Positions 17,301-43,250 are shown, numbered from the stretch's first letter. The stretch is DNA of 46,124 nucleotides from an uncultured Acidobacteriota bacterium (GCA_903847975.1 CAINFC010000046.1:1-46124); one strand, 5' to 3'. Notes: generated from the letters alone by a model not told the origin. Numbers and translations are program-made.

Positions 17301-17347
17301 TCTACCGCTCAAAAATGGAAGGGGCAGAAAAAAGGGCCGTACCGCGT

Positions 17348-18232: not shown

Positions 18233-18261
18233 CGACGGAACCAGGGGGCGCAGGTAGGACC

Positions 18262-19953
18262 ATGTCGACATTGGATATCATCGTTATTGCGATTTACCTG
18301 ATCGGCATCACTACGTTTGGAATCCGGGTCGGCTACCGCCGCAACGCCTCCACCGACCATTATTTTCTGGCCGACAAGTCGCTGGGATGGTTCACTGTCG
18401 GGGCGGCGGTGTTTACCTCCAACATCTCGACGATTCATCTGGTGGGTCTGGCAGCCGGGGGGGCCAAGGATGGAATGGTGATCGGCAACTTCGAATGGAT
18501 GGCCTGTTTCACACTTATCCTATTGGCCCTCCTGTTTGCGCCGTTTTACATCAACTCCGGGGTCCATACCTTGCCCGAGTTCATGGAACGTCGCTATGGT
18601 GCCGCGGCACGAACTTTCCTGGCTTTCATCGGCCTGATCGGGGCGCTGTTGATCCATATCGGCATCAGCCTCTTTGCGGCGGCCAAGATCTTCGAAAGTT
18701 TTCTAGGTGTGCCGATGGCGGCCACGATTCTGGTGCTTTCTCTTTTCACCGTCGCCTACACGGCGCTGGGCGGGCTGAAGGCGGTAGTGATGACCGAAAA
18801 TATCCAGGTGTGTCTTTTGATCGGCGGAGCCGCCCTGATTACCATCCTGGGTCTTTGGGCTCTGCCGGCGGCGGGGGTCCGTGATGTGGCCGCCTTCCGG
18901 GCGGCGGTCATGCCGGGGCAATTAAACATGCTTCAACCGGTGGTCAATGCCCAAGGCCATCTCAACGAGTTCTCCTGGTTGAGCGTACTGCTGGGTTATC
19001 CGATTTTAGGGATTTGGTACTGGTGCGCCGACCAGACGCACGTCCAGCGTATTCTCGGTGCCCGAAGCATCAAGGCGGGGCAGAATGGGGCCCTGTTTGC
19101 CGGCTTTCTCAAGATTACTCCCGTCTTCCTCATGGTTTTTCCCGGCGTGATTGGATATGTACTTTGGCGGAAGGGGGCCATTCAGCTGCCTCACCTGCCG
19201 GGAACCGACACTCCGGATTACAACACCCTTTTGCCGACCTTGATTAATTACCTGGTGCCGGTGGGAATGAAAGGCCTGCTGGCCGCCTGCATGGCTGCCG
19301 CCCTGATGAGCTGCATGGCCGCCGCGCTGAACAGCTGCGCCACGCTGATTTCCATGGATATCGTCAAGCGCTTGCGTCCGGATACTCCGGACCATCGGGT
19401 GGTGACCATCGGACGTTTCGCAACCGGCGCTATTATGTTGCTGGCCATGCTCTGGTCCACCCAGGGGGATCAATTCGGGACGATTTTTGAAGCGATCAAC
19501 AAGATCCCGATGACGTTTGCTCCTGCAGTTACTACCGTTTTTATCCTGGGAGTCATGTGGAAGCGCGGCACCCGACAGGCGGCCATGATAACCCTCTACA
19601 CCGGTTCGCTCATCGGGGTGATCTACTTCGTCCTCGACTTGCCGAATGTGGGCAAGGCGATCCTGGGTTCTGACCGGGTCCGGGCCGGCTTTAGCGGACT
19701 GGTGACGGACCCGGTCCAAGGGTTGGGAATCCCCTTTATGCTCGTTGGGCCCCTGATTGCGGCGCTGTGCCTCTTTCTTTATGTCGTTACCAGCCTGGCG
19801 ACGCCCGCCATGGATCGCAAGGAGGTTTCCCAAGTGTGCTGGAATCATCCGCTGGCATTTCTTCAGGGCCGCATCGAGGGCGCAAGCGACCCTCGATTGG
19901 TAACGCTCCTTCTGCTGTCTGTGGTTGGCAGCCTTTATCTTTGGATGAGATAA
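18262..19953 (+). CDS. Sodium:solute symporter, SSS family (SGLT-like)
   Basis: Inner-membrane transporter predicted to import a sugar or sugar derivative with sodium. The 563-residue protein has about 14 hydrophobic spans. It shows the family start (IDLIV-like LDIIVIAIYLIGITTFGIRVG), the early motif DHYFLADKSLGWFTVGAAVFTSNISTIHLVGLAAGG, YTALGGLKAVVMTENIQVCLL, WCADQTHVQRILGARS, and AACMAAALMSCMAAALNSCATLISMDIVKRL in the sodium-site region. GGTAGGACC precedes ATG. The gene sits 29 bp after the lactonase and 2 bp before the aldo/keto reductase, so it is part of the same operon. The large SGLT-type form favours a sugar over an amino acid. Confidence 0.92.
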   Translation: MSTLDIIVIAIYLIGITTFGIRVGYRRNASTDHYFLADKSLGWFTVGAAVFTSNISTIHLVGLAAGGAKDGMVIGNFEWMACFTLILLALLFAPFYINSGVHTLPEFMERRYGAAARTFLAFIGLIGALLIHIGISLFAAAKIFESFLGVPMAATILVLSLFTVAYTALGGLKAVVMTENIQVCLLIGGAALITILGLWALPAAGVRDVAAFRAAVMPGQLNMLQPVVNAQGHLNEFSWLSVLLGYPILGIWYWCADQTHVQRILGARSIKAGQNGALFAGFLKITPVFLMVFPGVIGYVLWRKGAIQLPHLPGTDTPDYNTLLPTLINYLVPVGMKGLLAACMAAALMSCMAAALNSCATLISMDIVKRLRPDTPDHRVVTIGRFATGAIMLLAMLWSTQGDQFGTIFEAINKIPMTFAPAVTTVFILGVMWKRGTRQAAMITLYTGSLIGVIYFVLDLPNVGKAILGSDRVRAGFSGLVTDPVQGLGIPFMLVGPLIAALCLFLYVVTSLATPAMDRKEVSQVCWNHPLAFLQGRIEGASDPRLVTLLLLSVVGSLYLWMR

Positions 19954-19955
19954 CC

Positions 19956-20936
19956 ATGCAGTACAACCCATTAGGTCAGACTGGTTTGATCGTTTCCCGC
20001 CTGAGCTTCGGAGCATCCGCTTTAGGCGGGGTCTATGGTCCGGTGGATGAAGCGGAAGGGATTCGAGCGGTTCGCACGGCTCTGGACTTGGGTATCAATT
20101 ACTTCGACGTGGCTCCCGCCTACGGGGGTACGCTTGCGGAGACCGTTCTCGGTAAGGCTCTCCAAGGTGTTCCCCGGGAGGACTACTACCTTTCCACCAA
20201 GGTCGGCAAGTACACCACGCCGGGCGGATATGGCGATGACACCCTCGATTTTTCCCGTGGCCGAATCCGGGCCTCGATCGAAGAAAGTTGCCGTCGACTG
20301 GGTACCGATTACTTCGATATCGTCCACCTTCACGATTTCGAATACCAGCATCGACGCCATACCGAGCGGGCGTTGAGCGAGGGTTTGTCCGCCCTGATCG
20401 AACTGAAGTCGCAAGGGCGAATCGGAAACGTCGGCTTTGGTATTTACCCCATGGACCTTTGGCATCGTATTTTCGATTTGCTGCCGGCGGATGCCGCTTT
20501 GGTTCACAATCACTACACGCTGAACGATACACGGGCGGTCGAGCTTCTGCCGGCGGCAAAACAGAAAGGGATCGGTATTATTAACGGATCTCCTTTTGGC
20601 AGCGGCTTGTTCAGCGGCCGGGAGGCTCCGGATTGGCACCCTGCCACGAGGGTGGACCGATGCCTTTTCCGAGCGGCATCCTCCTGGTGCGAACAGCGCG
20701 GCGAGCCGATAACCAAACTGGCCCTGCAGTTTGCCAGCCAGAACCCGGAGTTTCCGACCACTCTGTTCAGCAGTGCCCGCCCGACATCGGTTCGACAGAA
20801 TGTGGCCTGGTGGGGCGAACCCTATGATCCGGTTCTGTTCGCCGAGGTCCGGGCCATTCTGTCCCCGGTGATAAACAAGCAATGGGATTACGATGTCGCC
20901 GTTGAGCGGATCCTCTATCCGGAAGACGCCCATTAA
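19956..20936 (+). CDS. Aldo/keto reductase, L-fucose/aldose dehydrogenase-like
   Basis: NAD(P)-dependent enzyme of 326 residues that probably oxidises a free aldose to its lactone, feeding the lactonase upstream. The AKR tetrad is visible: D51 and Y56 (YFDVAPAYGG), K82 (STKVGKY) and H126 (VHLHDFEY). Other family features are NPLGQTGLIVSRLSFGASALGGVYG, IEESCRRLGTDYFDIV, VGFGIYPMD, GIGIINGSPFGSGLF and NPEFPTTLFSSARPTSVRQN. This arrangement, with a short GGYG loop after the lysine, is the L-fucose/L-galactose dehydrogenase type rather than a general aldehyde reductase. I chose ATG 19956, 2 bp after the symporter stop with GGATGAG upstream. The frame is open further upstream only inside the symporter gene. 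Confidence 0.9.
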   Translation: MQYNPLGQTGLIVSRLSFGASALGGVYGPVDEAEGIRAVRTALDLGINYFDVAPAYGGTLAETVLGKALQGVPREDYYLSTKVGKYTTPGGYGDDTLDFSRGRIRASIEESCRRLGTDYFDIVHLHDFEYQHRRHTERALSEGLSALIELKSQGRIGNVGFGIYPMDLWHRIFDLLPADAALVHNHYTLNDTRAVELLPAAKQKGIGIINGSPFGSGLFSGREAPDWHPATRVDRCLFRAASSWCEQRGEPITKLALQFASQNPEFPTTLFSSARPTSVRQNVAWWGEPYDPVLFAEVRAILSPVINKQWDYDVAVERILYPEDAH

Positions 20937-20954
20937 GGGAGGGCGGAAAAAAAC

Positions 20955-21884
20955 ATGAAAAGAAAAACAGAGAAAAAATACTCGGGGGTTATCGTGCCGA
21001 TGGTCACTCCGTTTACGAAGGATTGGAAAATCGATTCGCAGGCGGTGGAGAGATTGGTTCATAACTTTGTTGCAAATCATATTTCCCCTCTTGTCCTGGG
21101 CACAACGGGCGAGTGCGCCTCCATTCACGACGAAGACAAAATGGATCTGCTTCGATTTCTGGCGAGGTCCTTCCGGGATAAAACCAAAATTTATGTGGTC
21201 ATTTCCGACAACTGTTTCCGGAAGTCGGTGGAACTCGCCAAGCAGTATTTCGATTTCGGCATCGAGCTGAATGTAGCCTTATTGCCCAACTATTATCCTC
21301 TCAATCGGACCCAGATTCGAAAATACTTCGAGGACCTCGCCGAGAGGATTCCCGGAAAGCTTTTCATCTATAACATTCCCGCAACGACGGGTATTTCCAT
21401 CCCGCTGGACATTATCCAGGCGCTGAGTCTGCACGAAAAAATTGTAGGTCTGAAGGACTCCGAGCAGGACCTGCAGCGGCTGGACCAATCGATCGAAATG
21501 TGGAAGGACCGGAGCGACTTTTCCCATTTTGTCGGTTGGGGTGCCCAATGCCTCAATGGCTTAAGGAAAGGGTCGGATGGAATCGTGCCCAGTACGGGCA
21601 ATTTCTGTCCTTCCATCTATTGGAAATTGTACCAAGCGGCTTTAAATGAAGAAAGGGACCAAGGGCAGGAAGCGCTCGATATCACCATGGAGGTTGCCGC
21701 GATTTATCAGAACGGCAGAATTCTGAGCGAATCCCTGACCGCCTTAAAGTTGATGTTGCAGGTCGCTGGATTATGCGGCAAAACGGTACTGCCTCCCTTT
21801 ACCGATCTACCGGAAGAGGAGGAAAAGGAAGTGATACGCAAGACGAAAGAAACGATCGAAAAATACAAGCTTTCCTGGATTTGA
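20955..21884 (+). CDS. DHDPS/N-acetylneuraminate lyase-family aldolase
   Basis: Class I pyruvate-type aldolase of 309 residues, likely cleaving a 2-keto-3-deoxy sugar acid to pyruvate and an aldehyde (L-lactaldehyde if the substrate is 2-keto-3-deoxy-L-fuconate). It has SGVIVPMVTPF at the start, the pyruvate-binding LGTTGEC (49-54), the catalytic Y139 (FIYNIPATTG) and the Schiff-base K167 (IVGLKDSE), all in the right order. A ribosome site GGGAGG lies upstream of ATG. It is placed 18 bp after the sugar dehydrogenase and 63 bp before the TonB receptor. A deleted relative lies at 6390-6883. True dihydrodipicolinate synthase is unlikely in this setting. Confidence 0.9.
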   Translation: MKRKTEKKYSGVIVPMVTPFTKDWKIDSQAVERLVHNFVANHISPLVLGTTGECASIHDEDKMDLLRFLARSFRDKTKIYVVISDNCFRKSVELAKQYFDFGIELNVALLPNYYPLNRTQIRKYFEDLAERIPGKLFIYNIPATTGISIPLDIIQALSLHEKIVGLKDSEQDLQRLDQSIEMWKDRSDFSHFVGWGAQCLNGLRKGSDGIVPSTGNFCPSIYWKLYQAALNEERDQGQEALDITMEVAAIYQNGRILSESLTALKLMLQVAGLCGKTVLPPFTDLPEEEEKEVIRKTKETIEKYKLSWI

Positions 21885-21947
21885 TCAAGGACCGAACTCC
21901 AGGTGTGCTTTTCAAAGAAAAAATCATAAATCTTGGGAGAAAAAAAC

Positions 21948-24900
21948 ATGAATAAACCCACCTTTGAAACTCAAGGATTCCCGATCGGCAGGAGCGCTTG
22001 CTTTTGGCTGCTTCTCTTTTGGATAATCGCTCCCTGGGGTTGGGCCCAGGAGTATCGGGGAAGCATCAATGGCAGGATTGTGGATCCGCAGCAGAAGGTA
22101 ATACCGGGAGTAACCATTACTCTCACCGAAATCAATACCGGAGCTAAATTCGAAACCGTTTCCAGCGGGGACGGACAGTTTACCGTACCCTTTCTTCTGC
22201 CCGGTAGGTACAAGGTGGAGGTGGAACAAACGGGATTCAAGCACTATGTTCGCGAAGGTGTCCGGGTGAGCACCAACGACCGTGTATCGGTGGACATTGT
22301 CCTTGAGTTGGGCGGATCCAACGAGACGGTGACGGTTTCGGCCGATGCGCCGCTGGTCAATACCTCCAACGCTTCTACCGGTCAGGTCATCAATTCGCGT
22401 CAGGTGGAAGATATGCCCCTCATGGGAAGAGCGCCCTACGCGCTGGCCCAGTTGTCGTATGGAGTTACTCCGCGCGGAACGAATGCCTTAACCCGCCCCT
22501 TCGATAATGGCGCCAACGCAGATTTCTCGATTGGCGGAGCCCCCAACCGCGGGAACGAGCTGCTGCTGGACGGCCAGCCGAATATTTCCGAAGACGGCTC
22601 CATGGGCTGGTCGCCCCCGGTGGATGCTTTGCAGGAGGTGAAGGTCGAGACTTTTCAGTCGGATGCATCCTACGGGCATACCGGCGGAGGAACGATCAAC
22701 GCCGTTACGAAAGCCGGGACGAACAAATATCACGGGACGCTGTACGAGTTCAACCAGGTCTCCGCGCTGCAGGCCGCCAGTTTTTTTAATAACCGCGTCG
22801 GCCGGAAAAAGCCGGTTACTTCCTGGAACCAGTATGGCGCCACTATTGGCGGTCCGGTGGTTATCCCGAAATTGTTCCGCGGCCAAAACAAGCTCCTGTT
22901 CTTCTTCGCCTTCGAGGGGATTAAAAACAAATCCCCGGAGGAAGGCTTTGTGACCGTTCCTACCATGGAACAGCGCAGGGGAGATTTCTCCAAGCTGTTG
23001 GCGCTGGGCAACAACTACCAGCTGTATAATCCTTTTACCGGAGTGGTGAGCGGCACACGGGTCCAACGACAGCCGTTTCCGGGAAACATCATTCCCCAGA
23101 ACCTGATCAGTCCGGTAGCGACAAAAATGCTTCCCTTCTGGGGAGAACCGAATGTGCCCGGCAGTGTGGACGGTACCAACAACTATTATTATTCCGGAAA
23201 AGGGATCGACGATTTCGACAGCGAGCTGGGCCGCCTGGATTACAATATCAGCGATCGGAACAAGCTTTCCTACAACTTCCGCCACAACGACCGGCTGCTG
23301 ACCACCGGCAACCGTTTTAATACCCCCTCTACCGGATACCATCTCAACGAGATTAATTGGGGGTCGTCGCTGGACCATGTGTACACGCTTACACCGACGA
23401 CGGTGCTCAACACCCGGTTTAATTGGAATCGCAAAACGGAGTTGCGTACGCAAATGGGCGACGGCACGGACTATCTTGCCCAGATGGGCTTCCCGACCAA
23501 TGTCGTCAATGCCGCAACCCGAAAAATGTTTCCCGGTGTTTCGGTGAGCGGGTACGAAACCTTCGGATATGATTCCGGCCGTACCCAGCGCTACGACAAT
23601 TTTCAGATTTTTTCCACCCTGAACAAGGTTTGGGGAAAACACATGGTGAAGATCGGCACTGACTTGCGTCAGCAGAATTATGGCCGGTACCAATGGGGCC
23701 AGGGTGCGGGCAGCTACAGTGTCTCCACAGATTGGATTCGAGGGCCGTACAACAACTCGGCCGCTCCGCCGATGGGCGGCGGGATGGCCAGCCTGCTTCT
23801 CGGGACGCTGACTGGCGGCAGTTTCGTTGCGCCGCCTGCTCAGTCCAGCCAAAGCCGCTACCTGTCCGTCTTCGTGCAGGACGATTTTCGGCTCAACAAC
23901 AGCCTTACCCTGAACCTGGGTCTCCGCTACGAGCGCGAATTTGCGCCGACCGAGCGGTATAATCGCATACTGCGCGGGTTCGATCCCGTCGTGGCCAGCC
24001 CGATCAGTGCGCCGGCGCTGGCGGCCTATACGAAAAACCCTATTCCCGAAGTTCCCGTTTCCCAGTTTAAAACGGTGGGCGGGCTTCTCTTCGCCGATTC
24101 CAGCAACCGGTCGCCTTACGATACGAGTGCCAAAAATTTCAGCCCGCGGCTCGGCTTCGCCTGGAAACCGGCAGGCATGGGCGGGAAAAACGTTTTACGC
24201 GGCGGGTTAGGGCTTTTCTATACGCCGAACGAATTCGGCGGGACGGCCATCGACCAGACCGGATTCACCTCGTCCACGCCCATCGTAAGCACGCTCGACG
24301 GAGGGTTGACTCCGGCTGCGACGCTTGCCAATATCTTTCCGACCGGCTTCCTGCCGGCCACGGGTTCGTCCCTGGGAATATCCCAGAATCTTGGGCAAGG
24401 TGCCAGCTATTATATCCCTTTGGTGAAAAACGGTTACGCCATACGCTGGAATCTGGATGTGCAGCGCGAACTTCCCTGGGATATGGTTTTGCAGATGGGG
24501 TACCAGGGCAACCATGCGGTTCATCTGATGAACAGTTATTCGCAAAACTTCGTTCCGGCCAAATACCTGAGCACTTCTCCGGCACGCGACCAGGCGACGA
24601 TCGATTACCTTGCCGCCAATGTCACCAATCCCTTTGCCGGATTGCTACCGGGAACCAACCTGAACGGCAGCACGGTGTCGAGGTCCCAATTGTTGTATGC
24701 CTACCCCCAATATACCGGGGTTACCAGGCGGTTTGTTCCCGAAGGAAGTTCGGTCTTCCACATGTTCCAGGCCAGAATCGAGAAGCGCTTCTCCAATGGC
24801 CTTCAATTCCTGGGAAATTTCCAGCGATCGAAAATGATCACACGAACCAGCCGGTTGAATAACGCCGATCTTCAAATGGAAAAAGTGATTGCCAATGAGG

Positions 24901-25421
24901 ATCGACCGCAACGCATTGCGGTGAGCGGCAGCTACGATCTGCCTTTCGGGAAAGGCAAGCCCTTCGCCGCTCATGCCGGCCGCGGATGGGATGCCGTTCT
25001 GGGCGGGTGGGCGGTCAACTTTATTTACCAGCAGTTGTCGGGACCTCCACTCAGCTGGGGGAACATCATTCGCTATGGAACGGATATCAAGCTGAATCCC
25101 AGAAATATCGATCAGGCGTTCGACACCACCATGTTCAACCGTAATTCCAGCCAGCAGTTAGCCAGCAATTTGCGAACCTTCCCCTCCCGATTTTCCAATT
25201 TGCGGCAGGACGGACAAAACAACTGGGATTTTTCCATTCTCAAGAACACCCGAATTACCGAATCGCTGAAACTCCAATTTCGCGGTGAATTTTTCAATGC
25301 GTTCAATCATGTGCTCTTCGGCGCTCCGGACACTTCTCCCACCAGCGGCAGTTTCGGGAAGATCACCAGCCAGATCAATACGCCCCGGTACATTCAGTTG
25401 GGATTGAAACTGATTTTTTAG
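21948..25421 (+). CDS. TonB-dependent receptor, Oar-like
   Basis: Outer-membrane importer, 1,157 residues. The signal peptide (CFWLLLFWIIAPWGWAQ) is followed by a carboxypeptidase-regulatory-like domain (GSINGRIVDPQQKVIPGVTITL to about residue 110) and a plug: VTVSADAPLVNTSNASTGQVI, LLLDGQPNISEDGSMGW and ALQEVKVETFQSDASYGHTGGGTINAVTKAGTN. A full beta-barrel ends in FFNAFNHVLFGAPDTSPTSGSFG and IQLGLKLIF with a terminal aromatic, as outer-membrane barrels do. I preferred ATG 21948 (GGGAG 9 bases upstream) over the in-frame TTG at 21933. It lies within a run of catabolic genes, so it likely brings in the oligosaccharide those genes handle. It is the best full-length relative of the remnant at 3507-4712. 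Confidence 0.95.
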   Translation: MNKPTFETQGFPIGRSACFWLLLFWIIAPWGWAQEYRGSINGRIVDPQQKVIPGVTITLTEINTGAKFETVSSGDGQFTVPFLLPGRYKVEVEQTGFKHYVREGVRVSTNDRVSVDIVLELGGSNETVTVSADAPLVNTSNASTGQVINSRQVEDMPLMGRAPYALAQLSYGVTPRGTNALTRPFDNGANADFSIGGAPNRGNELLLDGQPNISEDGSMGWSPPVDALQEVKVETFQSDASYGHTGGGTINAVTKAGTNKYHGTLYEFNQVSALQAASFFNNRVGRKKPVTSWNQYGATIGGPVVIPKLFRGQNKLLFFFAFEGIKNKSPEEGFVTVPTMEQRRGDFSKLLALGNNYQLYNPFTGVVSGTRVQRQPFPGNIIPQNLISPVATKMLPFWGEPNVPGSVDGTNNYYYSGKGIDDFDSELGRLDYNISDRNKLSYNFRHNDRLLTTGNRFNTPSTGYHLNEINWGSSLDHVYTLTPTTVLNTRFNWNRKTELRTQMGDGTDYLAQMGFPTNVVNAATRKMFPGVSVSGYETFGYDSGRTQRYDNFQIFSTLNKVWGKHMVKIGTDLRQQNYGRYQWGQGAGSYSVSTDWIRGPYNNSAAPPMGGGMASLLLGTLTGGSFVAPPAQSSQSRYLSVFVQDDFRLNNSLTLNLGLRYEREFAPTERYNRILRGFDPVVASPISAPALAAYTKNPIPEVPVSQFKTVGGLLFADSSNRSPYDTSAKNFSPRLGFAWKPAGMGGKNVLRGGLGLFYTPNEFGGTAIDQTGFTSSTPIVSTLDGGLTPAATLANIFPTGFLPATGSSLGISQNLGQGASYYIPLVKNGYAIRWNLDVQRELPWDMVLQMGYQGNHAVHLMNSYSQNFVPAKYLSTSPARDQATIDYLAANVTNPFAGLLPGTNLNGSTVSRSQLLYAYPQYTGVTRRFVPEGSSVFHMFQARIEKRFSNGLQFLGNFQRSKMITRTSRLNNADLQMEKVIANEDRPQRIAVSGSYDLPFGKGKPFAAHAGRGWDAVLGGWAVNFIYQQLSGPPLSWGNIIRYGTDIKLNPRNIDQAFDTTMFNRNSSQQLASNLRTFPSRFSNLRQDGQNNWDFSILKNTRITESLKLQFRGEFFNAFNHVLFGAPDTSPTSGSFGKITSQINTPRYIQLGLKLIF

Positions 25422-25432
25422 TAGAAACGAAT

Positions 25433-28249
25433 ATGAATATGAAAAAGAGAACAATTCTTTGGACACTTGCCCTGGCGGCCATGGTCCTGACCCTGTTCGG
25501 CCAGGTCCGCCGTCCGTCCGCTGTGGCCAACTCGCTGGGCATGACGCTGGTGCCCATCGAAGCCGGAGTCTTCCCGATGGGTAATGCCGGCAAGCGGGAT
25601 CTGTGGAACGAACAACCGGTCCACGAAGTTACTATCTCGCAGCCGTTTTTCATTGCCGAAACGGAAGTGACCATCGATCAGTTTCGACAATTCAAACCGG
25701 ACTTTGAAGGAACATCCGCCTATCGTCCGTATGCGGCAGGAGTAAGCTGGCACGATGCCGTCGCCTTCACGGAATGGCTCAGCAAAAAGGAAGGCAAGCC
25801 ATATCGTCTGCCGACGGAGGCCGAATGGGAATATGTGGCCCGGGCCGGAACGGAGGACATCCAGGCCCAGGCCAAAGGAAAAATCGACACTCCCAATGCC
25901 TGGCAGGTGAAAAACATGCTGGCCGGGCCGCGGGAATGGTGTCTGGACTGGTTTGGGGAATACCCGGAAGGCAAGCAGGTCGATCCGGTGGGCCCGGCTG
26001 CCGGCCATGTGAAAATCGTTCGTGGCGGAACCCTGGATCTCGAGGAGAGAAACCGGGGGGAAGTGGATTTCGAACGGGCTCAGGTGCGCCTGGCCATGCC
26101 GCCTTCCTTCGGTCCCTTCGGGAAGCCGGCGATGAATAAGGTTTCCGGCGATGGCGATCGGCCCGGGCTGCTGGGAGTCTGGTTCCGCTCGCTGGACTTC
26201 CGGAATCCCCAGGAAGCGGATCTGCTTTCCAGGCTGAACAACAGCTGGAGCAACGATCCACGGGCCGGCGGGCGATGGTCGGCCCGTTGGCGCGGCTTTC
26301 TCGAAGCTCCCTACAGCGGCCAGGTGACCATCACTGCGGAAACGGGAAGCGGATTAACCCTGCACCTCTCGGACCAGTTGCTGATCGACAGCAGCGCCAG
26401 TCCCCCCATCCTCTCCGCTTCGGTGCGCATGGACCAGGGCCGCAAATACCCGATGGTGCTTGCCTTTTCCCGCAGCGGCGGGTCGGCCTTCCGTTTCGTC
26501 TGGGAATGGCCGGGTCAGAGCCGCGAGTTGATTCCCGGTGCCAGTCTTTCCCATACCGTCGAAGAAGAAAAGCTGGCCAAAGCCGAGGCCAAGGCCGAAA
26601 AGGCTCCCGGGTATCACCCCATCGGATTCCGTGTCGTACAAGCGGCCATGCCGGCTTCCCAGCCGTTTCCTGTCGAATCGCCCTACGTCCAGCAGGGGGT
26701 GAAGCCATTCACGGAATCCGTTCTGGTCGCACCGGACATGAGCAAGCCTTACTATCGGAAACGTCACCTGTTACCGACCCCTTTGGAAAACAGTCCCAAT
26801 GAGGCCATCGATGCATTGGCCATGCACCCTTCGTTCCGGCGCCACAATCATAGCCCGGGTATGGACGTCCTTCCGAACGGGGACATCTTTCTCGTTATCT
26901 ATACGTCTTACTCCGAGTACGAGCCCGGGGTCTCCCTGATCGCCACCCGGCTGCGCTTTGGGGCCGAGGAGTGGGATATGCCGTCCCGGTTCCTCGATTT
27001 TGTTGGAGTAAATGATCATGCGCCCCTGGTTTGGAATGACGAGGGGACCATCCGCGTTTTTTGGGGGAATCCCCAGATGGCGGAAGGAGGCTTTCCTTTT
27101 CAGTGGACGACTTCCCGCGATAACGGGGCCAGCTGGGATCCGATCCGGTTCCCGAACTTCATCGGCAAAATCGGAAGTCACTCGCCGCAGCCTATCAATA
27201 CCGCCTTTCGCGGGCCGGATGGGAAGTGGTACCTGTCGAGCGACGGATCGGGGGGCGAATCCGTTCTTTGGGAAAGTCCGGATGGCGGCCGGACCTGGCG
27301 CGATCCGGGGGCGCGGAGCGCCGGGCGGCATACCAGCTTCGCCCTGTTGAAAGACGGAAGGATTCTGGGTATGGGCGGAAAGAACACCCATATCGAGGAA
27401 TATATGCCCAAGGCTGTTTCCCGGGATGGCGGCAAATCGTACGAAGTTTCCAAAACGCCGTTTCCCCGGCAGGGGAGCAACCAGCGTCCGATGCTGATCC
27501 GCCTCAAGAGCGGCAAGTTGCTATTTGCCGGCGACTTCGTTTACCACAATGACGGGTCGCAACCCAAAGAGGTCAGCCATTTGGGAAGTTACGTGGCCCT
27601 CTCGGAGGATGAGGGCGAAACCTGGACCATCAAGCCGCTCCTCGGGGCGCAAATCCATGAAGACAGCGATCGCGCTGAGACCATGCGGGGCCCCACCCTT
27701 GGCTACTCGGTGGCCCGTCAGGCGCCCAACGGCATGATCCACCTGATTACCACCATGAACAATCCCTGTCTGCACTTTGAGTTCAACGAGGCCTGGATTC
27801 GTGACAACCGACCGGGGCAGCGGTCCGATGCCGAGTTAATGGCCTCCCAGGCCAGGACGATCGCCGGTATCGGCAAACAGGAAATGCTCTGCCCGGACGG
27901 CAAATCGAAGGTCGTCTGGAGCGGCGGTATCGCCGACGACGGTCGGTATCTGCTGGACGGAACAGAGACCTGGTTCTACGATACCGGTCAAAAACAGAGG
28001 GAGGCGGTCTACAAGCTAGGCAAAAAAAGCGGAACGGAAAGCTTCTGGTCGCGAGAGGGAAAGTTGCTCTGGTCCTGGGAATACCAGGGTCGGGGACCCG
28101 CGGTATGGCGCCAATGGTGGCCGAACGGACAAATGAAGTCCGAATCCGGCTGGAGAGGAATGAAAGCCCACGGCGCGTCCAGGCTTTGGGATCCTTCCGG
28201 GAAATCGATCGTCGAAACGAAGTTCAATTCCGGAAAATTATCCAACTGA
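25433..28249 (+). CDS. Exported FGE-like + PA14-like + sialidase + MORN fusion protein
   Basis: A 938-residue mosaic. After a signal peptide (ILWTLALAAMVLTLFGQ) comes a formylglycine-generating-enzyme-like domain (about 33-205: GMTLVPIEAGVFPMGN, EVTIDQFRQF, GVSWHDAVAFTEWLSKKEGKPYRLPTEAEWEYVARAG, IVRGGT). The late part of this domain is degenerate and the Cys pair used by true maturases is not apparent, so it is probably structural or binding. Next is a PA14-like sandwich (about 235-385: LLGVWFRSLD, WSARWRGFLEAPYSGQVTITAE). A sialidase-like propeller follows (about 440-800: HNHSPGMDVLPNGDI, TSRDNGASW, SPDGGRTW, SRDGGKSY, SEDEGETW). MORN-type repeats close it (WRQWWPNGQMKSESGW). It starts 11 bp after the receptor. 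The enzymatic activity is probably in the propeller; the substrate is unknown. Confidence 0.85.
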   Translation: MNMKKRTILWTLALAAMVLTLFGQVRRPSAVANSLGMTLVPIEAGVFPMGNAGKRDLWNEQPVHEVTISQPFFIAETEVTIDQFRQFKPDFEGTSAYRPYAAGVSWHDAVAFTEWLSKKEGKPYRLPTEAEWEYVARAGTEDIQAQAKGKIDTPNAWQVKNMLAGPREWCLDWFGEYPEGKQVDPVGPAAGHVKIVRGGTLDLEERNRGEVDFERAQVRLAMPPSFGPFGKPAMNKVSGDGDRPGLLGVWFRSLDFRNPQEADLLSRLNNSWSNDPRAGGRWSARWRGFLEAPYSGQVTITAETGSGLTLHLSDQLLIDSSASPPILSASVRMDQGRKYPMVLAFSRSGGSAFRFVWEWPGQSRELIPGASLSHTVEEEKLAKAEAKAEKAPGYHPIGFRVVQAAMPASQPFPVESPYVQQGVKPFTESVLVAPDMSKPYYRKRHLLPTPLENSPNEAIDALAMHPSFRRHNHSPGMDVLPNGDIFLVIYTSYSEYEPGVSLIATRLRFGAEEWDMPSRFLDFVGVNDHAPLVWNDEGTIRVFWGNPQMAEGGFPFQWTTSRDNGASWDPIRFPNFIGKIGSHSPQPINTAFRGPDGKWYLSSDGSGGESVLWESPDGGRTWRDPGARSAGRHTSFALLKDGRILGMGGKNTHIEEYMPKAVSRDGGKSYEVSKTPFPRQGSNQRPMLIRLKSGKLLFAGDFVYHNDGSQPKEVSHLGSYVALSEDEGETWTIKPLLGAQIHEDSDRAETMRGPTLGYSVARQAPNGMIHLITTMNNPCLHFEFNEAWIRDNRPGQRSDAELMASQARTIAGIGKQEMLCPDGKSKVVWSGGIADDGRYLLDGTETWFYDTGQKQREAVYKLGKKSGTESFWSREGKLLWSWEYQGRGPAVWRQWWPNGQMKSESGWRGMKAHGASRLWDPSGKSIVETKFNSGKLSN

Positions 28250-28262
28250 GCGAGGACCTACC

Positions 28263-29795
28263 ATGTCGAACCTTCGGTTGCCGGATCTGATCATCGTGGT
28301 TCTGTATATGGCCTCCATGGTCTATATAGGAATTCGTTTTGCCCGTCGGCAGACTTCCACCGAAACGTATTTCGTGGCCCAACGGTCGATTCCCTCCTGG
28401 GCAATGGGAATCTCTTTGTTCGCCACGATTATTACCAGCGTTACCTATGTGGCCTATCCCGGCTCGGCCTATGCCGGCGACTGGTCGAATCTGGTGCCCG
28501 GTTTCCTGATTGTCCTGGTCCTGATGCTGGTGGGGGCGGTCATTGTTCCTTTCTACCGGGAAGCGGTAGGCATGAGCGCCTATGAGTTTTTCGGAAAACG
28601 ATTCGGTAAACCGGCGCGGCTGTACAGCGCTCTGGCATTCGCCTTGGCCCACTTTTCCAAGATGGGATTCATCTTTTACACTCTGGCCCTGGTGGTCAGC
28701 AGCATGACCGGGTGGCCGCTGGATCAGGTAATTCTCTGGGTGGGGGCCATCACTATTTTCTACAGCCTGATCGGCGGGCTGGAGGCGGTTATCTGGACCG
28801 AGGTGGTGCAGGGTATCCTAAAATCAACCGGTGCCCTGATCTGCCTGGGATATCTTTTTCTTTATACGCCGGGCGGACCTTCCGCTGCCTTCCGGGTGGC
28901 ATGGGACAACGATAAATTCAGCCTGGGCAGCACGGCCTTCGATTTCACCAAACCGACGATCGTCGTGCTGATTTGCTACGGCTTTTTCTGGTACCTGCAG
29001 AAATACGTGGCCGACCAGACCGTGGTGCAGCGTTACCTGGTTGCCAAGAGCCATAGGGAGGCGTTGCGGGGGATCCGCCTGGGTGCTTTGCTCTGTATAC
29101 CGGTGTGGGCCCTGTTTATGCTGGTCGGAACGATGCTCTGGTCATTTTATAAGCTGACCGGCGAGCCACTGCCGGCACACATTACCAAGGCGGATCAGGT
29201 GTTTCCTCATTTTCTGACCACCCACATTCCGGCCGGTATGGCCGGCCTGTTTATCGCCGCCCTGATGGCGGCTGCCATGTCCGGTTTGGCCTCGGATCTC
29301 AACTGCCTGGCCGTGGTTTGCGTGGAGGACTTTTATGGTTTTTTCCGGAAAGGTTCCAGCGATCGTCGCCGATTGAATATTGCCAAAATCATTGTCGGGA
29401 TTACCGGGATGTCGGCCGTGGCCACCGGGCTGCTGCTGGCTCACACACGGGGGACGGCGCTGACCATGTGGTTTACGGTGTCCTCCATTGCCTCAGGCGG
29501 GCTTGCCGGGATGTTTCTCCTGGCCTTTCTGGTCAAGCGGGCCAATCGCCAGGGACTGTATATCGGTATCCTCGCCTGTATCCTTTTCACCGCCTGGGCA
29601 ACGCTGACCTCCGGGGCTCAGCCGGTTCTGGATCTTGCGCCATTCAAATGGGGACTGCACGATTTCATGATCGGGGTTATCGGCCACCTGGTTCTTCTGA
29701 CGGTCGGTTATTTGGCCAGCTGGTTTTTTCCGCCGGAGCGGGAGGTGACAGGAATGACGGTGTGGGAGTGGATGAAAGCCCGAAGAACGAAATAG
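28263..29795 (+). CDS. Sodium:solute symporter, SSS family (second copy)
   Basis: Inner-membrane sodium-coupled importer, 510 residues and about 13 spans. Typical segments are LPDLIIVVLYMASMVYIGIRFARRQTSTETYFVAQRSIPSWAMGISLFATIITSVTYVAYPGSAY, YSLIGGLEAVIWTEVVQGIL, YLQKYVADQTVVQRYLVAKSHREALRGI and FIAALMAAAMSGLASDLNCLAVV. It is only distantly similar to the symporter at 18262-19953, so the two probably take up different compounds. GAGG precedes the ATG, 13 bp after the fusion-protein gene, and the split transketolase follows 24 bp later. Transport of a sugar or sugar acid is inferred from these neighbours. Confidence 0.92.
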   Translation: MSNLRLPDLIIVVLYMASMVYIGIRFARRQTSTETYFVAQRSIPSWAMGISLFATIITSVTYVAYPGSAYAGDWSNLVPGFLIVLVLMLVGAVIVPFYREAVGMSAYEFFGKRFGKPARLYSALAFALAHFSKMGFIFYTLALVVSSMTGWPLDQVILWVGAITIFYSLIGGLEAVIWTEVVQGILKSTGALICLGYLFLYTPGGPSAAFRVAWDNDKFSLGSTAFDFTKPTIVVLICYGFFWYLQKYVADQTVVQRYLVAKSHREALRGIRLGALLCIPVWALFMLVGTMLWSFYKLTGEPLPAHITKADQVFPHFLTTHIPAGMAGLFIAALMAAAMSGLASDLNCLAVVCVEDFYGFFRKGSSDRRRLNIAKIIVGITGMSAVATGLLLAHTRGTALTMWFTVSSIASGGLAGMFLLAFLVKRANRQGLYIGILACILFTAWATLTSGAQPVLDLAPFKWGLHDFMIGVIGHLVLLTVGYLASWFFPPEREVTGMTVWEWMKARRTK

Positions 29796-29819
29796 AATTT
29801 CTGCCGGAGGCGAGGATTG

Positions 29820-30695
29820 ATGGAAAGTGAAATGGAGAAAATACGGAAACTGGAAGAGATCGCCAACCGCATCCGGATCCATGTGGTGAAGATGATCGGC
29901 TGTTCCGGTATCGGGCATGCCGGCGGGGCGGTATCCATGGCGGAGATTCTCTCGGTGCTCTACTTTCAGGAAATGCGGCTCGATCCGCTCCGTCCGGACT
30001 GGGACGACCGCGATCGCTTCATTCTGTCCAAGGGACATGGCTGCCCGGCCCTGTATGCCACGCTGGCCGAGGCGGGCATCATTCCGATGGACCTTCTGCC
30101 GACCCTGCACGAAACGGAAAGCCCCCTGCAAATGCATCCGGAGCTGGGGATTTGCCCGGGCATCGAGATGAGCACTGGTGCGCTGGGCCAGGGATTATCG
30201 GCGGGAATCGGCATGGCCCTGGGGGCGCAGTGGAAAAGGAAGGATTTTCGGGTCTACGTGCTCATCGGCGACGGGGAGTCGGCAGAAGGCCAGGTTTGGG
30301 AGGCGGCGATGTTTGCCGGTCACCGGCGGCTCGACAACCTGACGGCCATTCTTGACTATAACCGGTTCAGTCTCACCGGCCGTGTCGAAAAGGTCATGCC
30401 GCTGGAGCCCTTAAGCGACAAGTGGACCGCATTCGGATGGCATGTGGTCCGGGTCGACGGTCATTCTGTAACCGGTCTGATCCAGGCTTTCCGCCTGGCC
30501 CGCGAAGAAAAGGGACGACCTACCCTGATTGTGGCCGATACCATCAAAGGGCGCGGGATTTCTTATGTGGAAAACACGGCCTCCAGTCATTCGATTTCCA
30601 TGACCGCTACGGAGCTGGCCGGCACGCTCCGGGAACTGGGTTGCTCGCCCGGGGAGATCGAACACGCGGTATCCGTGAGGAAGGAGTATCGTTAA
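29820..30695 (+). CDS. Transketolase, N-terminal (TPP-binding) subunit
   Basis: First half of a two-gene transketolase, 291 residues. It binds thiamine diphosphate through GDGES (150-154) and the matching N181 (ILDYNRF). It also has SGIGHAGGAVSMAEIL near the start, FILSKGHGCPALYATLAE, HPELGICPGIEMSTGALGQGLSAGIGMA and a late IKGRGISYVEN. I chose ATG 29820 with GGAGG 9 bases upstream. The stop TAA abuts the GTG of the second subunit. Split transketolases of this form transfer two-carbon units and are known both as stand-alone pentose enzymes and as dedicated enzymes of rare-sugar pathways (AptAB for apulose phosphate, SqwGH for sulfo-sugars). Which applies here is unknown. Confidence 0.92.
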   Translation: MESEMEKIRKLEEIANRIRIHVVKMIGCSGIGHAGGAVSMAEILSVLYFQEMRLDPLRPDWDDRDRFILSKGHGCPALYATLAEAGIIPMDLLPTLHETESPLQMHPELGICPGIEMSTGALGQGLSAGIGMALGAQWKRKDFRVYVLIGDGESAEGQVWEAAMFAGHRRLDNLTAILDYNRFSLTGRVEKVMPLEPLSDKWTAFGWHVVRVDGHSVTGLIQAFRLAREEKGRPTLIVADTIKGRGISYVENTASSHSISMTATELAGTLRELGCSPGEIEHAVSVRKEYR

Positions 30696-31658
30696 GTGGA
30701 AAACCAACTGGCCCCTCGCGACGTCCTCGGGCAAACGCTGATCGAATTGGCCGAGGAGGATTCTTCTATTGCTGTCCTGGATGCCGACTTCTGCACCGCC
30801 TCCAAAATCACCGCTTTCCGGGACCGCTTTCCGGATCGCTTCATCCAGGTGGGCATCGCCGAACAGAACATGATGAGTATGGCCGCGGGGCTGAGCACCG
30901 TGGGTTTCACCTGCTTCGCTTCGACAATCTGCGCTTTTTGCTCCCGACGGGCTTGCGATCAGGTGATGACTTCCATCGCCCTTCCCAACCTGAATGTTAA
31001 GATTATCGGCCTGTATGCCGGGCTCTTTGTCGGCAAAAACGGCGCTTCGCACCAGTCCCTGGAAGATATCGGCATCATGCGCTCCATGGCCAACATGACG
31101 GTGGTCCAGCCGCTGGACGCGCGGGAAACAATCCAGGTGCTGCGTTACGCCGCCCGGCACCGCGGGCCGATGTACATGCGCATCGGCCGCGATCCGCTTC
31201 CGCAGTATGTTCCGGACGACTACGTGTTCCGGCCGGGCGGCAGCATCACCCTGCGGCCCGGCGGAGATGTGGCCCTCCTGGCCTACGGGGATCTGATGCC
31301 GCAGGTGATGTCGGCGGCGGAGGGCCTGGCGTCGAAAGGGATCCAGGCCCGGGTTGTCAATATGAGCTCGCTGAAGCCGATCGATGAAGAGGCGGTTCGG
31401 GCGGCCGCAAGGGAAACCGGGCGAATCGTAACGGTCGACAACCACAATATCTTCGGCGGCCTGGGCTCCGCGGTGGCGGAAGTCATCGCCGAAAAGGCGC
31501 CGGCCCGGTTGCGGCGCATCGGCGTGCGCGACGTCTTCGGCAAATCGGGAACCAACGCGGAAATGCTGGCCAGGTTTCATCTTCGTGCCGATGATATCGA
31601 AAAGGAAGTACGGGACTTCCTGGGCCCACGATTCCATGCCGGAAACGCTCCTGGATAA
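30696..31658 (+). CDS. Transketolase, C-terminal subunit
   Basis: Second half of the split transketolase, 320 residues. The pyrimidine-binding domain carries the catalytic glutamate E56 (VGIAEQNMMSMAAGL), preceded by IAVLDADFCTASK. The segment GLFVGKNGASHQSLEDIGIMRSM supplies active-site His and loop residues. The C-terminal domain begins at about 190 (GDVALLAYGDLMPQVMSAAEGL) and includes IVTVDNHNIFGGLGSAVAEV. The start is GTG 30696, directly after the TAA of the partner gene with AAGGAG upstream, indicating coupled translation. Part of its C-terminal domain is repeated as a 99-bp scrap at 6884-6982. Confidence 0.92.
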   Translation: MENQLAPRDVLGQTLIELAEEDSSIAVLDADFCTASKITAFRDRFPDRFIQVGIAEQNMMSMAAGLSTVGFTCFASTICAFCSRRACDQVMTSIALPNLNVKIIGLYAGLFVGKNGASHQSLEDIGIMRSMANMTVVQPLDARETIQVLRYAARHRGPMYMRIGRDPLPQYVPDDYVFRPGGSITLRPGGDVALLAYGDLMPQVMSAAEGLASKGIQARVVNMSSLKPIDEEAVRAAARETGRIVTVDNHNIFGGLGSAVAEVIAEKAPARLRRIGVRDVFGKSGTNAEMLARFHLRADDIEKEVRDFLGPRFHAGNAPG

Positions 31659-31745
31659 CACATTCTGGAACCGGCTCCCGGGAGAAGCGTCGATAGCTGT
31701 CATGATGACTATTTTTTTTCAGGGATTCTTGCCAAAGAGTCTGCC

Positions 31746-33578
31746 ATGAAACGAACCACGCTCCGGAGGCGGGACTTTTGGAAAACCGGCATGGCCGGAA
31801 CCACGGTTGCCCTGTCCCCATCCTTCGATGGCCGGCCGGTGGGGACGACTTGTCCTGCCGTGAGCCGCCTTGCCGGGGCCGCATCGGAGGGGGAAACACG
31901 GGAAGGGACCGTCGTCCGATCGGATATGGCCCAGTGCAAGCCCGCCAAGAATCTGACGCGCCACTTCGAAAACGACAGATGGCAATTGATCGACTACGAG
32001 ACCACGAATGGTGTCAAGGGTGTCATGGCATCGGCCCGGCCGGACCACACGTGCGGGGAGCTGACGCTATCTCTGGACGTGAAAGGAATGTACCGACTCT
32101 ATCTTGGTATCCACCTGACAAAATCGCACTATCCCGGAGATTCCCCTTATGGACAGCTTGAGGTGAAGCTTTCCCGGGATGCCGGGTTTCGGAGAGTCGG
32201 TCCGGAACACGATACGGTCGACGAGGATGGAAGCAACAAGTTTGGAGGGGAAGGGCCGGATATCAACCGGGTCATAACGGAAGCCTATTGGAAGACGGCC
32301 GACCTTACCGGGCAAGCGCTGTCGTTTCGTCAGCCCCAATATCCCTACAACCGCCCGGAGCATGCGAACATATCCAATCTTTCGTACGTAAAACTTGAGC
32401 CGTTGACCGATCGGGAGAAGGAGGAGTGGCAGGAGAACCAGCCGCGGGAAGAGACTCGGAAACTGGCACTGATTTCCTGTACAGGTCAATATACGGGTCA
32501 TACGCATGGAACCTATTCCTTCCATCCAACTTCCCGCCTGTGGTTCCAGGATGAATTCGAACCCTTCTTGCATTCCGACATCAAGATATTTATCTTCGAA
32601 GCGCTGCGGGGCAACTTCTGCCTGTACCGGACCGGAATTGGCGAGGTAGGCACTCCGGACAATCGCTGGCAGCGGGATTGGTTAGATCCTTTGGCGGAGT
32701 TTACAAAACGGGCCCACGACAACGGTATGAAAATATTCGCCGGGATGCGCTTTATCGGGCCGCAATATCCTATGAACGTTGCGCCTATCGCCTGGGCCCG
32801 CCATTATTGGAAACACCCTGAATGGACCAGGCGCAATCAGGAAGGCGTTCCCCTGGCCGGCTGGAGTCTGGCTTATCCGGAAGTCCGCCGATACTGGCTG
32901 AGTCTCTTGCGTGAAGCGCTTGACTACGGGATCGACGGGATTCAACTCCACCTGAATCGATCGGAGCCGTACGTTTTCTTTGAGGAACCGGTGGTGGAAT
33001 CTTTTCGGGCAAAATATGACCAGGACCCCCGTCGGCTGTCCATACGCGATCCTCGCTGGGTGGCCCACTCGGCGGGGTACGTTACCCGGTTCGTTCGTGA
33101 GGTGCGTGAGTTGGTGGATGAAAAGCCGGGTCGTGAACTCGGGGTAACGGTCTCCGGCCGGAAGAATGGCCAGGAAGCGCACTACCAGGAGAACCATTGT
33201 GACGTGGAGGTCTGGTTGCGCGAGCGCCTGGTGAATTACCTTATGCCCACCCCTTACCTCCATACGGCGCTTCTCCAGAAATGGCGTAAGATGGGCGGTA
33301 ATGGTATACAAATATGGCCCGATCTGATGCCGCGAGCGCAATCGGCGGCTGCCTACGCCCGACTGGCAAAGAAGTACTATGAGGCCGGCGCGGACGGCCT
33401 CTGTTTGTGGGATGGGGAACGGCGCACCGCGAGAATCAGCGAGTGGGCTGCGGTACAGAGACTGGGCCACATCCGGATGCTGGATCGACTCATGGAGCAG
33501 GCCCCTTCTTATTATCGGGCCTCTGCTCTCAAATACCTCGGCGGCTTTGACGTGAGATGGTCTTTCAAGGATGGTTGA
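31746..33578 (+). CDS. Tat-exported family 10-like TIM-barrel glycoside hydrolase, unassigned
   Basis: About 610 residues. The start RRRDFWKTGMAGTTVALSP is a twin-arginine signal, so the protein is probably folded before export. Residues about 50-220 look like a beta-rich ligand-binding domain (CGELTLSLDVKGMYRLYLGIHL, YGQLEVKLS, NISNLSYVKLEPL). Residues about 240-600 look like a TIM barrel related to GHL10-type putative glycosidases: KIFIFEALRGNF, HDNGMKIFAGMRFIGP, YPEVRRYWLSLLREALDYGIDGIQLHLNRSEPYVFFEE, YVTRFVREVRELVDEK and YYEAGADGLCLWDGE. Acidic residues at D and E of the GIDGIQL and CLWDGE strands are candidate catalytic groups. It closes the plus-strand locus and no close named family is recognised. 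Confidence 0.75.
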   Translation: MKRTTLRRRDFWKTGMAGTTVALSPSFDGRPVGTTCPAVSRLAGAASEGETREGTVVRSDMAQCKPAKNLTRHFENDRWQLIDYETTNGVKGVMASARPDHTCGELTLSLDVKGMYRLYLGIHLTKSHYPGDSPYGQLEVKLSRDAGFRRVGPEHDTVDEDGSNKFGGEGPDINRVITEAYWKTADLTGQALSFRQPQYPYNRPEHANISNLSYVKLEPLTDREKEEWQENQPREETRKLALISCTGQYTGHTHGTYSFHPTSRLWFQDEFEPFLHSDIKIFIFEALRGNFCLYRTGIGEVGTPDNRWQRDWLDPLAEFTKRAHDNGMKIFAGMRFIGPQYPMNVAPIAWARHYWKHPEWTRRNQEGVPLAGWSLAYPEVRRYWLSLLREALDYGIDGIQLHLNRSEPYVFFEEPVVESFRAKYDQDPRRLSIRDPRWVAHSAGYVTRFVREVRELVDEKPGRELGVTVSGRKNGQEAHYQENHCDVEVWLRERLVNYLMPTPYLHTALLQKWRKMGGNGIQIWPDLMPRAQSAAAYARLAKKYYEAGADGLCLWDGERRTARISEWAAVQRLGHIRMLDRLMEQAPSYYRASALKYLGGFDVRWSFKDG

Positions 33579-40242: not shown

Positions 40243-41578
40243 ATGGCCAATCCCAATCTCTCTTCGTTCATCTGGTCGGTGGCCGATTTGCTGCGCGGTG
40301 ACAACAGCAGTCCGAATATGGTAAGGTCATTCTGCCCTTCACCGTGCTGCGGCGCTGGACTGCGTGCTGGAGCCTACCAAAGCGGCGGTGTTAGCCGAAA
40401 AATCGCTCCGCGAGGCTGCCGGGATGAATCCTGAACCGTTCCTGCTGAAAAAATCAGGGCAGCTCTTTTTCAACACCTCGCCGCTCGATTTGAAGAAGCT
40501 CATGGGGGACCAGGACAACATCGGCGAGAGCATCCGCGCTTATATGCAGGGCTTCTCCCCGGCGGTGCGCGATATTTTCGAGCGCTTCGATTTTCACACC
40601 CAGATCGACCGGCTCGCCAAGGCCGGGCTGCTCTACCTGGTCACCGAGAAATTCGCCGGCATCGACCTGCACCCCGATGCGGTCAGCAACAGCCAGATGG
40701 GCCTGATCTTCGAGGAGCTGATCCGCGAGTTCGCCTAGCTTTCCAACGAAACCGCCGGGGAGCACTTCACCCCGCGGGACGTCATCCGGCTGATGGTCAA
40801 CCTGATCCTGATCCTGATCGAGGATGACGAGATCCTCACCCGGCCGGGGGTGGTCCGCTCGCTCTACATGCTTTCCACCCCCCCCTTCGGGGTGGAGTGG
40901 AAGAAGATCGAGCGCGAGATCCGCAAGGAGGCCGAGGAGAAGGGCACCAGCGGGCGTTTCGGGCCCGGACTGTCGCGGGTCAGCGACGGCTCGCTGCTCT
41001 TCCTGCTGCACCTGGTCTCCAAGATGAGGCCGGCCAAGGATGGCGGCAGCCGCTTCGGGATCGTGCTGAACGGCCCCCCTCTTTTTACCGGCGGGGCCGG
41101 CTCGGGGGAAAGCGAGATCCGCCGCTATGTGCTGGAAAACGACCTGATCGAGGCCATCATCGGGCTGCCGACGGACATGTTCTACAATACCGGCATCGGC
41201 ACCTATGTCTGGATCCTCACCAACCGCAAGAGCCCGCCACGCCGGGGGAAGGTGCAGCTCATCGATGCCGGCGGCTTCCGGCAGAAGATGCGCATAAGCC
41301 TGGGTAGCATGCGCAAGGAGCTCAGTGCGGAACAGATCGAGGACATTACCCGCATCTTCGGGGAGTTTGCCGAGGTAACCCGCGACGGGGTGCCCGTCTG
41401 CCGCATTTTCCGAAACGAGGATTTCGGCGACCGCACGATCACCGTGGAGCGGCCGGAGCGGGATGAAAAAGGAAACCCGGTGCTGGTAGCCAAGGGGAGG
41501 GGAGAGGGCAAGCCTCAGCCGGACGCCGCGCCGCGCGACACGGAAAACTTGCCCCTCGGGGAGGATGTCGAGGACTAA
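40243..41578 (+). pseudogene. hsdM: Type I restriction-modification methyltransferase subunit HsdM, decayed copy
   Basis: Close copy of the hsdM at 44528-46015 with several lesions. There are two single-base deletions at about 40303 and 40352, and a GAG-to-TAG stop at 40736-40738. A 6-bp in-frame expansion (ATCCTG repeated) lies at about 40805. A 219-bp in-frame deletion at 40867/40868 removes the SAM-binding DPTAGTGGM region and is flanked by CTAC on both sides in the intact copy. The catalytic NPPF has become TPPF. The C-terminus stops early (LPLGEDVED), although it extends further than the right copy into normal HsdM sequence (DTENLPL). It cannot methylate DNA. Confidence 0.93.
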
Positions 41579-41964
41579 TTCCGGCGGGAGGAGATGGCTC
41601 TCAGCGCCTGGGGTGAGATCGTTCGAGAAGAATGGTTGCGATCCGGGCCACTCCGCAAGGAGGTCCGGTTGGCGGAGTTTGTCATCATGCCGAATCATTT
41701 TCACGGCATCGTCTGCATCGAAACGCCGAAAGGTGGAAGAACCGAAGCCACCCGAACCCTCGGCTCGATAGTCCGTGGTTTCAAAGCCGCGGTTACCCGA
41801 AGAATCCGCATGCAAAGCGACCGACCGGAAGCCGAAGTATGGCAGCGCAACTTCTATGAGCACGTGATTCGCAACCAGGAAGACTACGAGCGCATTGCTG
41901 CCTACATCCTCGACAATCCCATAAACCGGGAAAAAGACGACTACCACAAAACAACCGAAACCCA

Positions 41965-41977
41965 GGTTGGGCCAACC
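41965..41977 (+). repeat. Short perfect dyad at the 3' end of the RAYT fragment
   Basis: GGTTGG-G-CCAACC, 6-bp arms with a 1-base centre, inside the 3' end of the transposase fragment. It is the kind of palindrome linked with RAYT elements. Confidence 0.5.
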
Positions 41978-41990
41978 ACGGAATGGCCGA

Positions 41991-42017
41991 GTTGCCACCC
42001 AGCAATCGAAACACTTG
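41991..42017 (+). repeat. 27-bp direct repeat, left copy
   Basis: Begins GTTGCCACCC and ends ATCGAAACACTTG. It matches 42199-42225 at 24 of 27 bases, 208 bp apart. Confidence 0.7.
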
Positions 42018-42019
42018 TA

Positions 42020-42040
42020 GGGGCGTGCGGCGCGCGCCCC
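42020..42040 (+). repeat. REP-like hairpin
   Basis: GGGGCG (42020-42025) pairs with CGCCCC (42035-42040) across a 9-base GC-rich loop, preceded by TGTA. This is the form of REP hairpin often found near RAYT genes. A half version (GGGGCGCGCGCG) recurs at about 42124. Confidence 0.65.
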
Positions 42041-42198
42041 AAACCAGCGAAGTAACCAAACCAAACGACCGAAAGAATCAGGTGGAAGACAAGTAAAATG
42101 GGTGAACACGAATCAACCGAATGGGGCGCGCGCGGGAAAACAACCGATCAACCAGACAAAACCCGATGGGCATGATGGGTCACCCACGAAAAAGCCGG

Positions 42199-42225
42199 GT
42201 TGCCACACAAAAATCGAAACACTTG
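42199..42225 (+). repeat. 27-bp direct repeat, right copy
   Basis: Partner of 41991-42017. It ends where the HsdR C-terminal remnant begins, so the pair may frame the REP-bearing insertion. Confidence 0.7.
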
Positions 42226-42228
42226 GAA

Positions 42229-42477: not shown

Positions 42478-42495
42478 GTCCGGTTTCCGGGCGCC

Positions 42496-42542: not shown

Positions 42543-42552
42543 GCGGTCCCAT

Positions 42553-43118: not shown

Positions 43119-43150
43119 CCCTGGCCGGAATAGGAACGGGGAGGGGAATG

Positions 43151-43202: not shown

Positions 43203-43250
<48 letters not shown>

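Follow-up and report, generated by a model that had tools for sequence, protein, structure and literature searches.

A candidate dedicated split transketolase with a SqwGH-like substrate site in a glycan operon of an uncultured Acidobacteriota bacterium

Results

Gene organization of the locus

The window, as we call the whole analysed stretch of 46,124 nucleotides, corresponds to contig C46 in a genome of 8.13 Mb with 99.1% completeness. Three real open reading frames lie at 28263-29795, 29820-30695 and 30696-31658, where the preliminary description had placed them. They encode an SSS symporter (SSS2; PF00474, 144 bits) and the transketolase subunits TktN (Transketolase_N, PF00456, 189 bits) and TktC (Transket_pyr and Transketolase_C, 114 and 110 bits), and follow each other head to tail on the plus strand with gaps of 24 and 0 bases. 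The TAA stop codon of TktN (30693-30695) abuts the GTG start codon of TktC (30696), which has AAGGAG upstream. For TktN the most likely start is the ATG at 29820 with GGAGG upstream, the alternative being 29817. Reading frames, domains and spacing thus agree with the earlier claim of a two-subunit transketolase just after a symporter in a glycan locus.

From 14355 to 33578 every gene is on the plus strand and the gaps are very short, from which we infer an operon. Its order is BNR protein (14355-15479; PF13088), GH2 glycosidase (15480-17300; PF02837/PF00703/PF02836), COG3618-type amidohydrolase resembling sugar lactonases (17297-18232; PF04909), SSS symporter 1 (SSS1, 18262-19953; PF00474), aldo-keto reductase (AKR) of the L-galactose dehydrogenase family (19956-20936), DHDPS-family (class I pyruvate) aldolase (20955-21884; PF00701; 4xky, E=6e-37), Oar-like TonB-dependent receptor (21933-25421; PF25183, 610 bits), a fusion protein (25433-28249), SSS2, TktN, TktC and a GHL10-type putative glycosidase with a Tat-like signal (31746-33578; PF02638). 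Just upstream, on the same strand, are an IclR-family regulator (10813-11712; PF01614/PF09339) and a secreted LamG-domain protein (11760-13898; PF13385) whose start is uncertain from its start codons; a GH95 gene and a sulfatase lie further upstream. This gene content suggests a cluster for the uptake and breakdown of a complex sugar polymer. At the right end of the window (40793-46015) a fragment of an N6 methylase, a fragment of an IS200-like transposase and an HsdM type I methyltransferase are located.

The fusion protein, earlier called sialidase-type, combines FGE-sulfatase-like, PA14, BNR and MORN domains. Its BNR part (26801-27820) is predicted, from domain model and fold match, to form a sialidase propeller, and to this extent the name stands. 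However, where a sialidase has its first catalytic Arg (RIP motif), all members of this family carry His, so that sialidase activity is not implied. A canonical sialidase was therefore rejected in spite of the matching fold, as the first Arg of the triad is absent.

Active site of TktN and TktC

The pair has the features of a split transketolase, namely separate ThDP-binding and Pyr/C subunits, a GDG-N motif and intact catalytic Glu and His. The residues of TktC were read against the Carboxydothermus hydrogenoformans and human transketolases and are related here to E. coli TktA numbering. TktC keeps Arg8 and Arg162 (Arg358 and Arg520 in TktA) as well as the catalytic Glu56 and His119 (His473). 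Four positions of the substrate site are replaced: Ser385 by Ala35, Phe434 by Ile78, His461 by Tyr107 and Asp469 by Asn115, the last preceded by Lys114. TktN retains the GDG-N motif and the histidines, while the position of Arg91, which in TktA forms a salt bridge with Asp469 (PMC5073344), is His97. The state R-S-H-E-D-H-R of housekeeping enzymes predominates in a set of 113 homologues. The phosphate-site motif RSFHR of housekeeping enzymes thus reads RAIYR in the window and RAFDR in SqwGH (PMC11659671), the latter two agreeing at three of five positions.

Some of these positions have been altered in E. coli TktA by engineering (H461S, D469T, S385Y, R520Q; PMC5073344, PMC12016104); the window enzyme is natural, carries other side chains and keeps the counterparts of both Arg358 and Arg520. 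Changes at D469, S385 and R520 let TktA accept unphosphorylated aldehydes (PMC5073344). In the variant R358I/H461S/R520Q, cleavage of 5-keto-gluconate yields tartaric semialdehyde (PMC12016104), so keto-acids become substrates when His461 is changed along with both Arg. Because Ser385, Phe434, His461, Asp469 and Arg91 are replaced and the two Arg kept, the variable partner of TktN/TktC is most likely unphosphorylated and probably anionic, or else an aldehyde that is L-configured at the carbon adjoining the carbonyl. The two retained Arg suggest either an anionic end or a phosphorylated co-substrate. The unphosphorylated substrate of the preliminary description is thus favored by the residues, much as in SqwGH; its joining of an aldose route to the transketolase stands as a proposal only.

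Other transketolases of the genome and phylogeny

The same genome encodes two intact full-length transketolases, on contigs C149 and C275, and a further split pair on contig C216, so the window genes are not its only transketolase genes. With these two full-length enzymes in the genome, and with the motif RAIYR instead of RSFHR, a housekeeping role of the window pair was ruled out. The pair on C216 (L135:7722-10334) is very divergent, is followed by an apparent family 2 glycosyltransferase and is possibly biosynthetic.

The nearest solved structures are the chains of the alpha2beta2 split transketolase of C. hydrogenoformans (6yaj/6yak; E 4e-90 and 8e-84), which, unlike the window pair, retains the RSFHR motif and the GEDG loop. 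No relative with more than 46% identity over the length of TktC was found class-wide, phylum-wide (396 genomes) or GTDB-wide (84,980 species), the last scan being a non-exhaustive one with six exact seed peptides of one protein that may miss distant or seed-poor relatives. A literature search for the exact phrase "split transketolase" returned nothing.

A maximum likelihood tree of 40 rows was calculated with AptAB of E. coli SE15 (locus tags from PMC13001218) and with two SqwGH references (L253, L256) chosen by context: their genomes encode SqvB (PF16161), and a split transketolase adjoins a FucI-like SqvD in them. The TktC proteins of both references carry RAFDR and have Asn in place of Asp469. 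The clade of AptAB, supported at 100/99, does not contain the window pair, and the window pair is also placed outside the housekeeping split and fused enzymes. A group supported at 93/87 unites it with a related pair from another genome (L148, see below) and the two SqwGH references; within this group it lies outside the two references, and the same four rows stay together at 82/70 when the active-site columns are masked. The support is moderate and concerns long branches (1.0 for the window). Together with the two full-length enzymes, the trees bear out the earlier idea of a dedicated, non-housekeeping split transketolase, and of the known dedicated enzymes they bring SqwGH, with moderate support, and not AptAB close to it.

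Like the window pair, AptAB, which acts on apulose-4-phosphate, is a dedicated split transketolase of a sugar operon, and E. coli with the apiose cluster grows on apiose (PMC13001218). In contrast to TktC, AptB of E. coli SE15 lacks the Arg8 equivalent and carries Asn in place of His461 as well as Pro-Leu in the GEDG loop, and the partner of AptAB, an FGGY apulose kinase, is absent from the window operon. Membership in AptAB was ruled out by the separate clade and these residues.

The likeness to SqwGH is closer: both are split two-gene enzymes of catabolic operons in which the phosphate-site Ser is replaced by Ala and Asp469 by Asn while both Arg are kept. Since SqwGH is the nearest characterized family in the tree, one could take TktN/TktC for a true SqwGH acting on a sulfosugar from sulfoquinovose, but we consider this highly improbable. 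At His461 the window enzyme has Tyr where SqwGH has Asp, and Phe434 is Ile. Neither SqvB (PF16161), SqvD nor SqwI was detected in the window by Pfam and NCBIfam scans, no sulfoquinovosidase-type gene is annotated in the operon, and the pair resides in a TonB/symporter glycan operon without SqvB, SqvD, SqwI or SqwF partners. A true SqwGH was rejected on account of the motif and these missing genes. Judged by the features compared, the window pair appears SqwGH-like in its pocket and is neither SqwGH nor AptAB.

It would also be conceivable that TktN/TktC is an ordinary transketolase for phosphorylated sugars, a spare or flux-boosting copy whose altered residues reflect drift. The cofactor motif and both phosphate-site Arg are indeed retained, and split transketolases with assorted substrate sites are scattered through catabolic loci of the phylum. 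We nevertheless regard such a copy as unlikely, given that five substrate-site residues have changed together across TktN and TktC whereas the catalytic Glu and His and the residues for the cofactor are preserved, that two full-length housekeeping enzymes are present and that the pair groups with SqwGH.

Oxidative aldose route of the operon

The nearest matches of the AKR are L-galactose dehydrogenases (9w6y/7lh6, E about 1e-76), and the best PDB match of the COG3618 lactonase is 4dlf (E=1e-56), an L-fucono-lactonase. With the aldolase in the same plus-strand run, these enzymes would constitute an oxidative aldose route beside the transketolase, as the preliminary description had supposed, and its remark that kinase, isomerase and epimerase are absent holds for the operon. 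A sugar-acid dehydratase was likewise not found in the operon; the genome holds 22 enolase-superfamily (MR_MLE) matches elsewhere.

These enzymes point to one specific alternative, an oxidative L-fucose or L-galactose route in which the AKR yields a lactone, the lactonase an aldonate, a dehydratase encoded elsewhere its dehydrated form and the DHDPS-family aldolase pyruvate and L-lactaldehyde or L-glyceraldehyde, the aldehyde then serving as the transketolase substrate. The upstream GH95 gene and the MR_MLE matches are consistent with it, and loss of Asp469 relaxes the acceptor configuration in engineered TktA. Against it, the operon lacks the dehydratase, the two retained Arg suit an anion better than lactaldehyde, and relatives of the SSS2 operon in other genomes (below) point to a C4 acid. 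Lactaldehyde is normally oxidized or reduced, and we know of no use for a 5-deoxyketopentose. We thus give this alternative little probability.

Related loci in other genomes

Orthologues of the IclR regulator were found with 69-70% identity at the related locus (L148 in genome G029), 65% on another contig of that genome (C309) and 48-50% in seven genomes of f18, a family of the same phylum and a different class. At L148 the IclR gene is divergent from a split transketolase whose TktC has the same Ala, Tyr and Lys-Asn. Its TktN has lost metal-binding residues (Asp of GDG to Val, Asn to Lys) and its TktC is frameshifted. This transketolase looks decayed and was therefore used for linkage only and not as a working orthologue. 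An HpcH/HpaI aldolase and an Ldh_2 dehydrogenase are its neighbors but do not share an operon with it. Contig C309 combines IclR with GHL10 (56-60%), SSS2 (47%), two BNR fusions and sulfatases, and no transketolase is found beside this cassette. The same holds for a paralogous cassette of the window genome on contig C18 (L189:7227-11687), where a BNR fusion (79%) and SSS2 (89%) are located near another sulfatase.

In all seven f18 genomes (L210, L211, L214, L238-L241) the IclR orthologue co-occurs with SSS2 (47-59%). The operon order there is DtnK-like kinase, PdxA-like protein, SSS2, HpcH/HpaI aldolase and Fe-ADH (which in L211 falls at the limit of the analysed sequence or past it), with no transketolase, and in most genomes a BNR (sialidase-fold) fusion, a TonB receptor and IclR are nearby. 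The names of the first two are approximate, since the kinase comes nearest to D-threonate kinase among NCBIfam models without reaching its cut-off, and the PdxA-like protein passes the general PdxA cut-off but not that for D-threonate-4-P dehydrogenase. A pyruvate aldolase seems to act on the cargo of the f18 SSS2, with a C4 acid as an intermediate, and the operon has the appearance of an undescribed pathway for sugar acids. Taken together, the loci are most simply read as one IclR regulon for one class of sugar acids in which the downstream chemistry has been swapped, with a C4-acid route in f18 and the transketolase in the window.

Discussion

Proposed function of TktN/TktC

On balance, and by a modest degree, we favor TktN/TktC as a dedicated SqwGH-like ketol transferase that handles an unphosphorylated, probably anionic fragment of a sugar imported by the operon. 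The subunits would form one ThDP-dependent alpha2beta2 enzyme with the active site between them and would serve the imported sugar or sugars instead of the pentose phosphate pathway. A ketol (C2) unit would move, in either direction, between glyceraldehyde-3-P/xylulose-5-P and the unphosphorylated fragment. As first-ranked partner we propose the product of the pyruvate aldolase of the operon, a C4 aldehyde acid of the tartaric-semialdehyde type whose counterpart in the reaction would be a 5-keto-hexonate, or L-lactaldehyde or L-glyceraldehyde if the aldolase acts on the L-fuconate/L-galactonate series. The second-ranked partner would be a ketose or keto-acid taken up by SSS2, which would donate the ketol unit in the way that sulfofructose does for SqwGH. 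Several points count against the proposal: the grouping with SqwGH has moderate support and a long window branch, L148 as the sole other transketolase found with this site and regulator looks decayed, the C309 and C18 cassettes have no transketolase beside them, and the same genome holds a DUF1537-PdxA pair elsewhere. An outlet for hexuronates via UxaB was rejected, as PF08125 (UxaB-type reductase) has no match in the genome; a tagaturonate product would therefore need another outlet. The pathway that uses TktN/TktC appears to be undescribed.

A specific form of this proposal, which we regard as a rather long shot, is that the regulon serves to break down a 3-deoxy sugar acid such as Dha (3-deoxy-D-lyxo-heptulosaric acid), whose only known source in plants is the pectin RG-II (PMC12168206). 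The pyruvate aldolase would release a C4 aldehyde acid, which in f18 would be reduced to D-threonate and converted to DHAP by DtnK and PdxA. In the window genome a natural acid-sugar transketolase would instead add a ketol unit to form a 5-keto-hexonate. This idea draws on the stereochemistry of Dha, which by hand bookkeeping is compatible with D-threonate for the one route and D-tagaturonate for the other, on the aldolase with D-threonate-type enzymes and on the sialidase-fold hydrolase, whose first catalytic Arg is missing. The lack of a UxaB-type reductase for a tagaturonate product speaks against it. In the literature on RG-II and Dha we found no described catabolic pathway for Dha, though one may still exist.

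If the favored ketol-transferase function is correct, TktN/TktC would join AptAB and SqwGH as one more specificity class among naturally occurring dedicated split transketolases, and nature would already have altered the positions at which TktA was engineered to take keto-acids and unphosphorylated aldehydes. Through the IclR/SSS2/sialidase-fold regulon, which recurs, what appears to be an undescribed catabolism of sugar acids in the phylum can be approached in concrete, testable terms.

Further split transketolases in the phylum

Three other loci (L149, L150, L211) hold a split transketolase of the AptAB clade together with an FGGY kinase, a FucI-like isomerase, an ABC or RhaT-like transporter and GH95, GH29 or GH78 genes, possibly an apiose-type pathway with a FucI-family isomerase. 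L143, L146 and their relatives (L044-L050) form a class-specific clade in which His461 is Ser and which adjoins an SDR and a GH43 xylosidase-like gene, in L143 also a 6PGDH-like dehydrogenase. Tyr-type split transketolases at L142, L111 and L147 have DegT aminotransferases, URO-D family proteins or a DHDPS aldolase as neighbors; of the two tandem split pairs at L111, one has Ala, Tyr and Asn as in the window.
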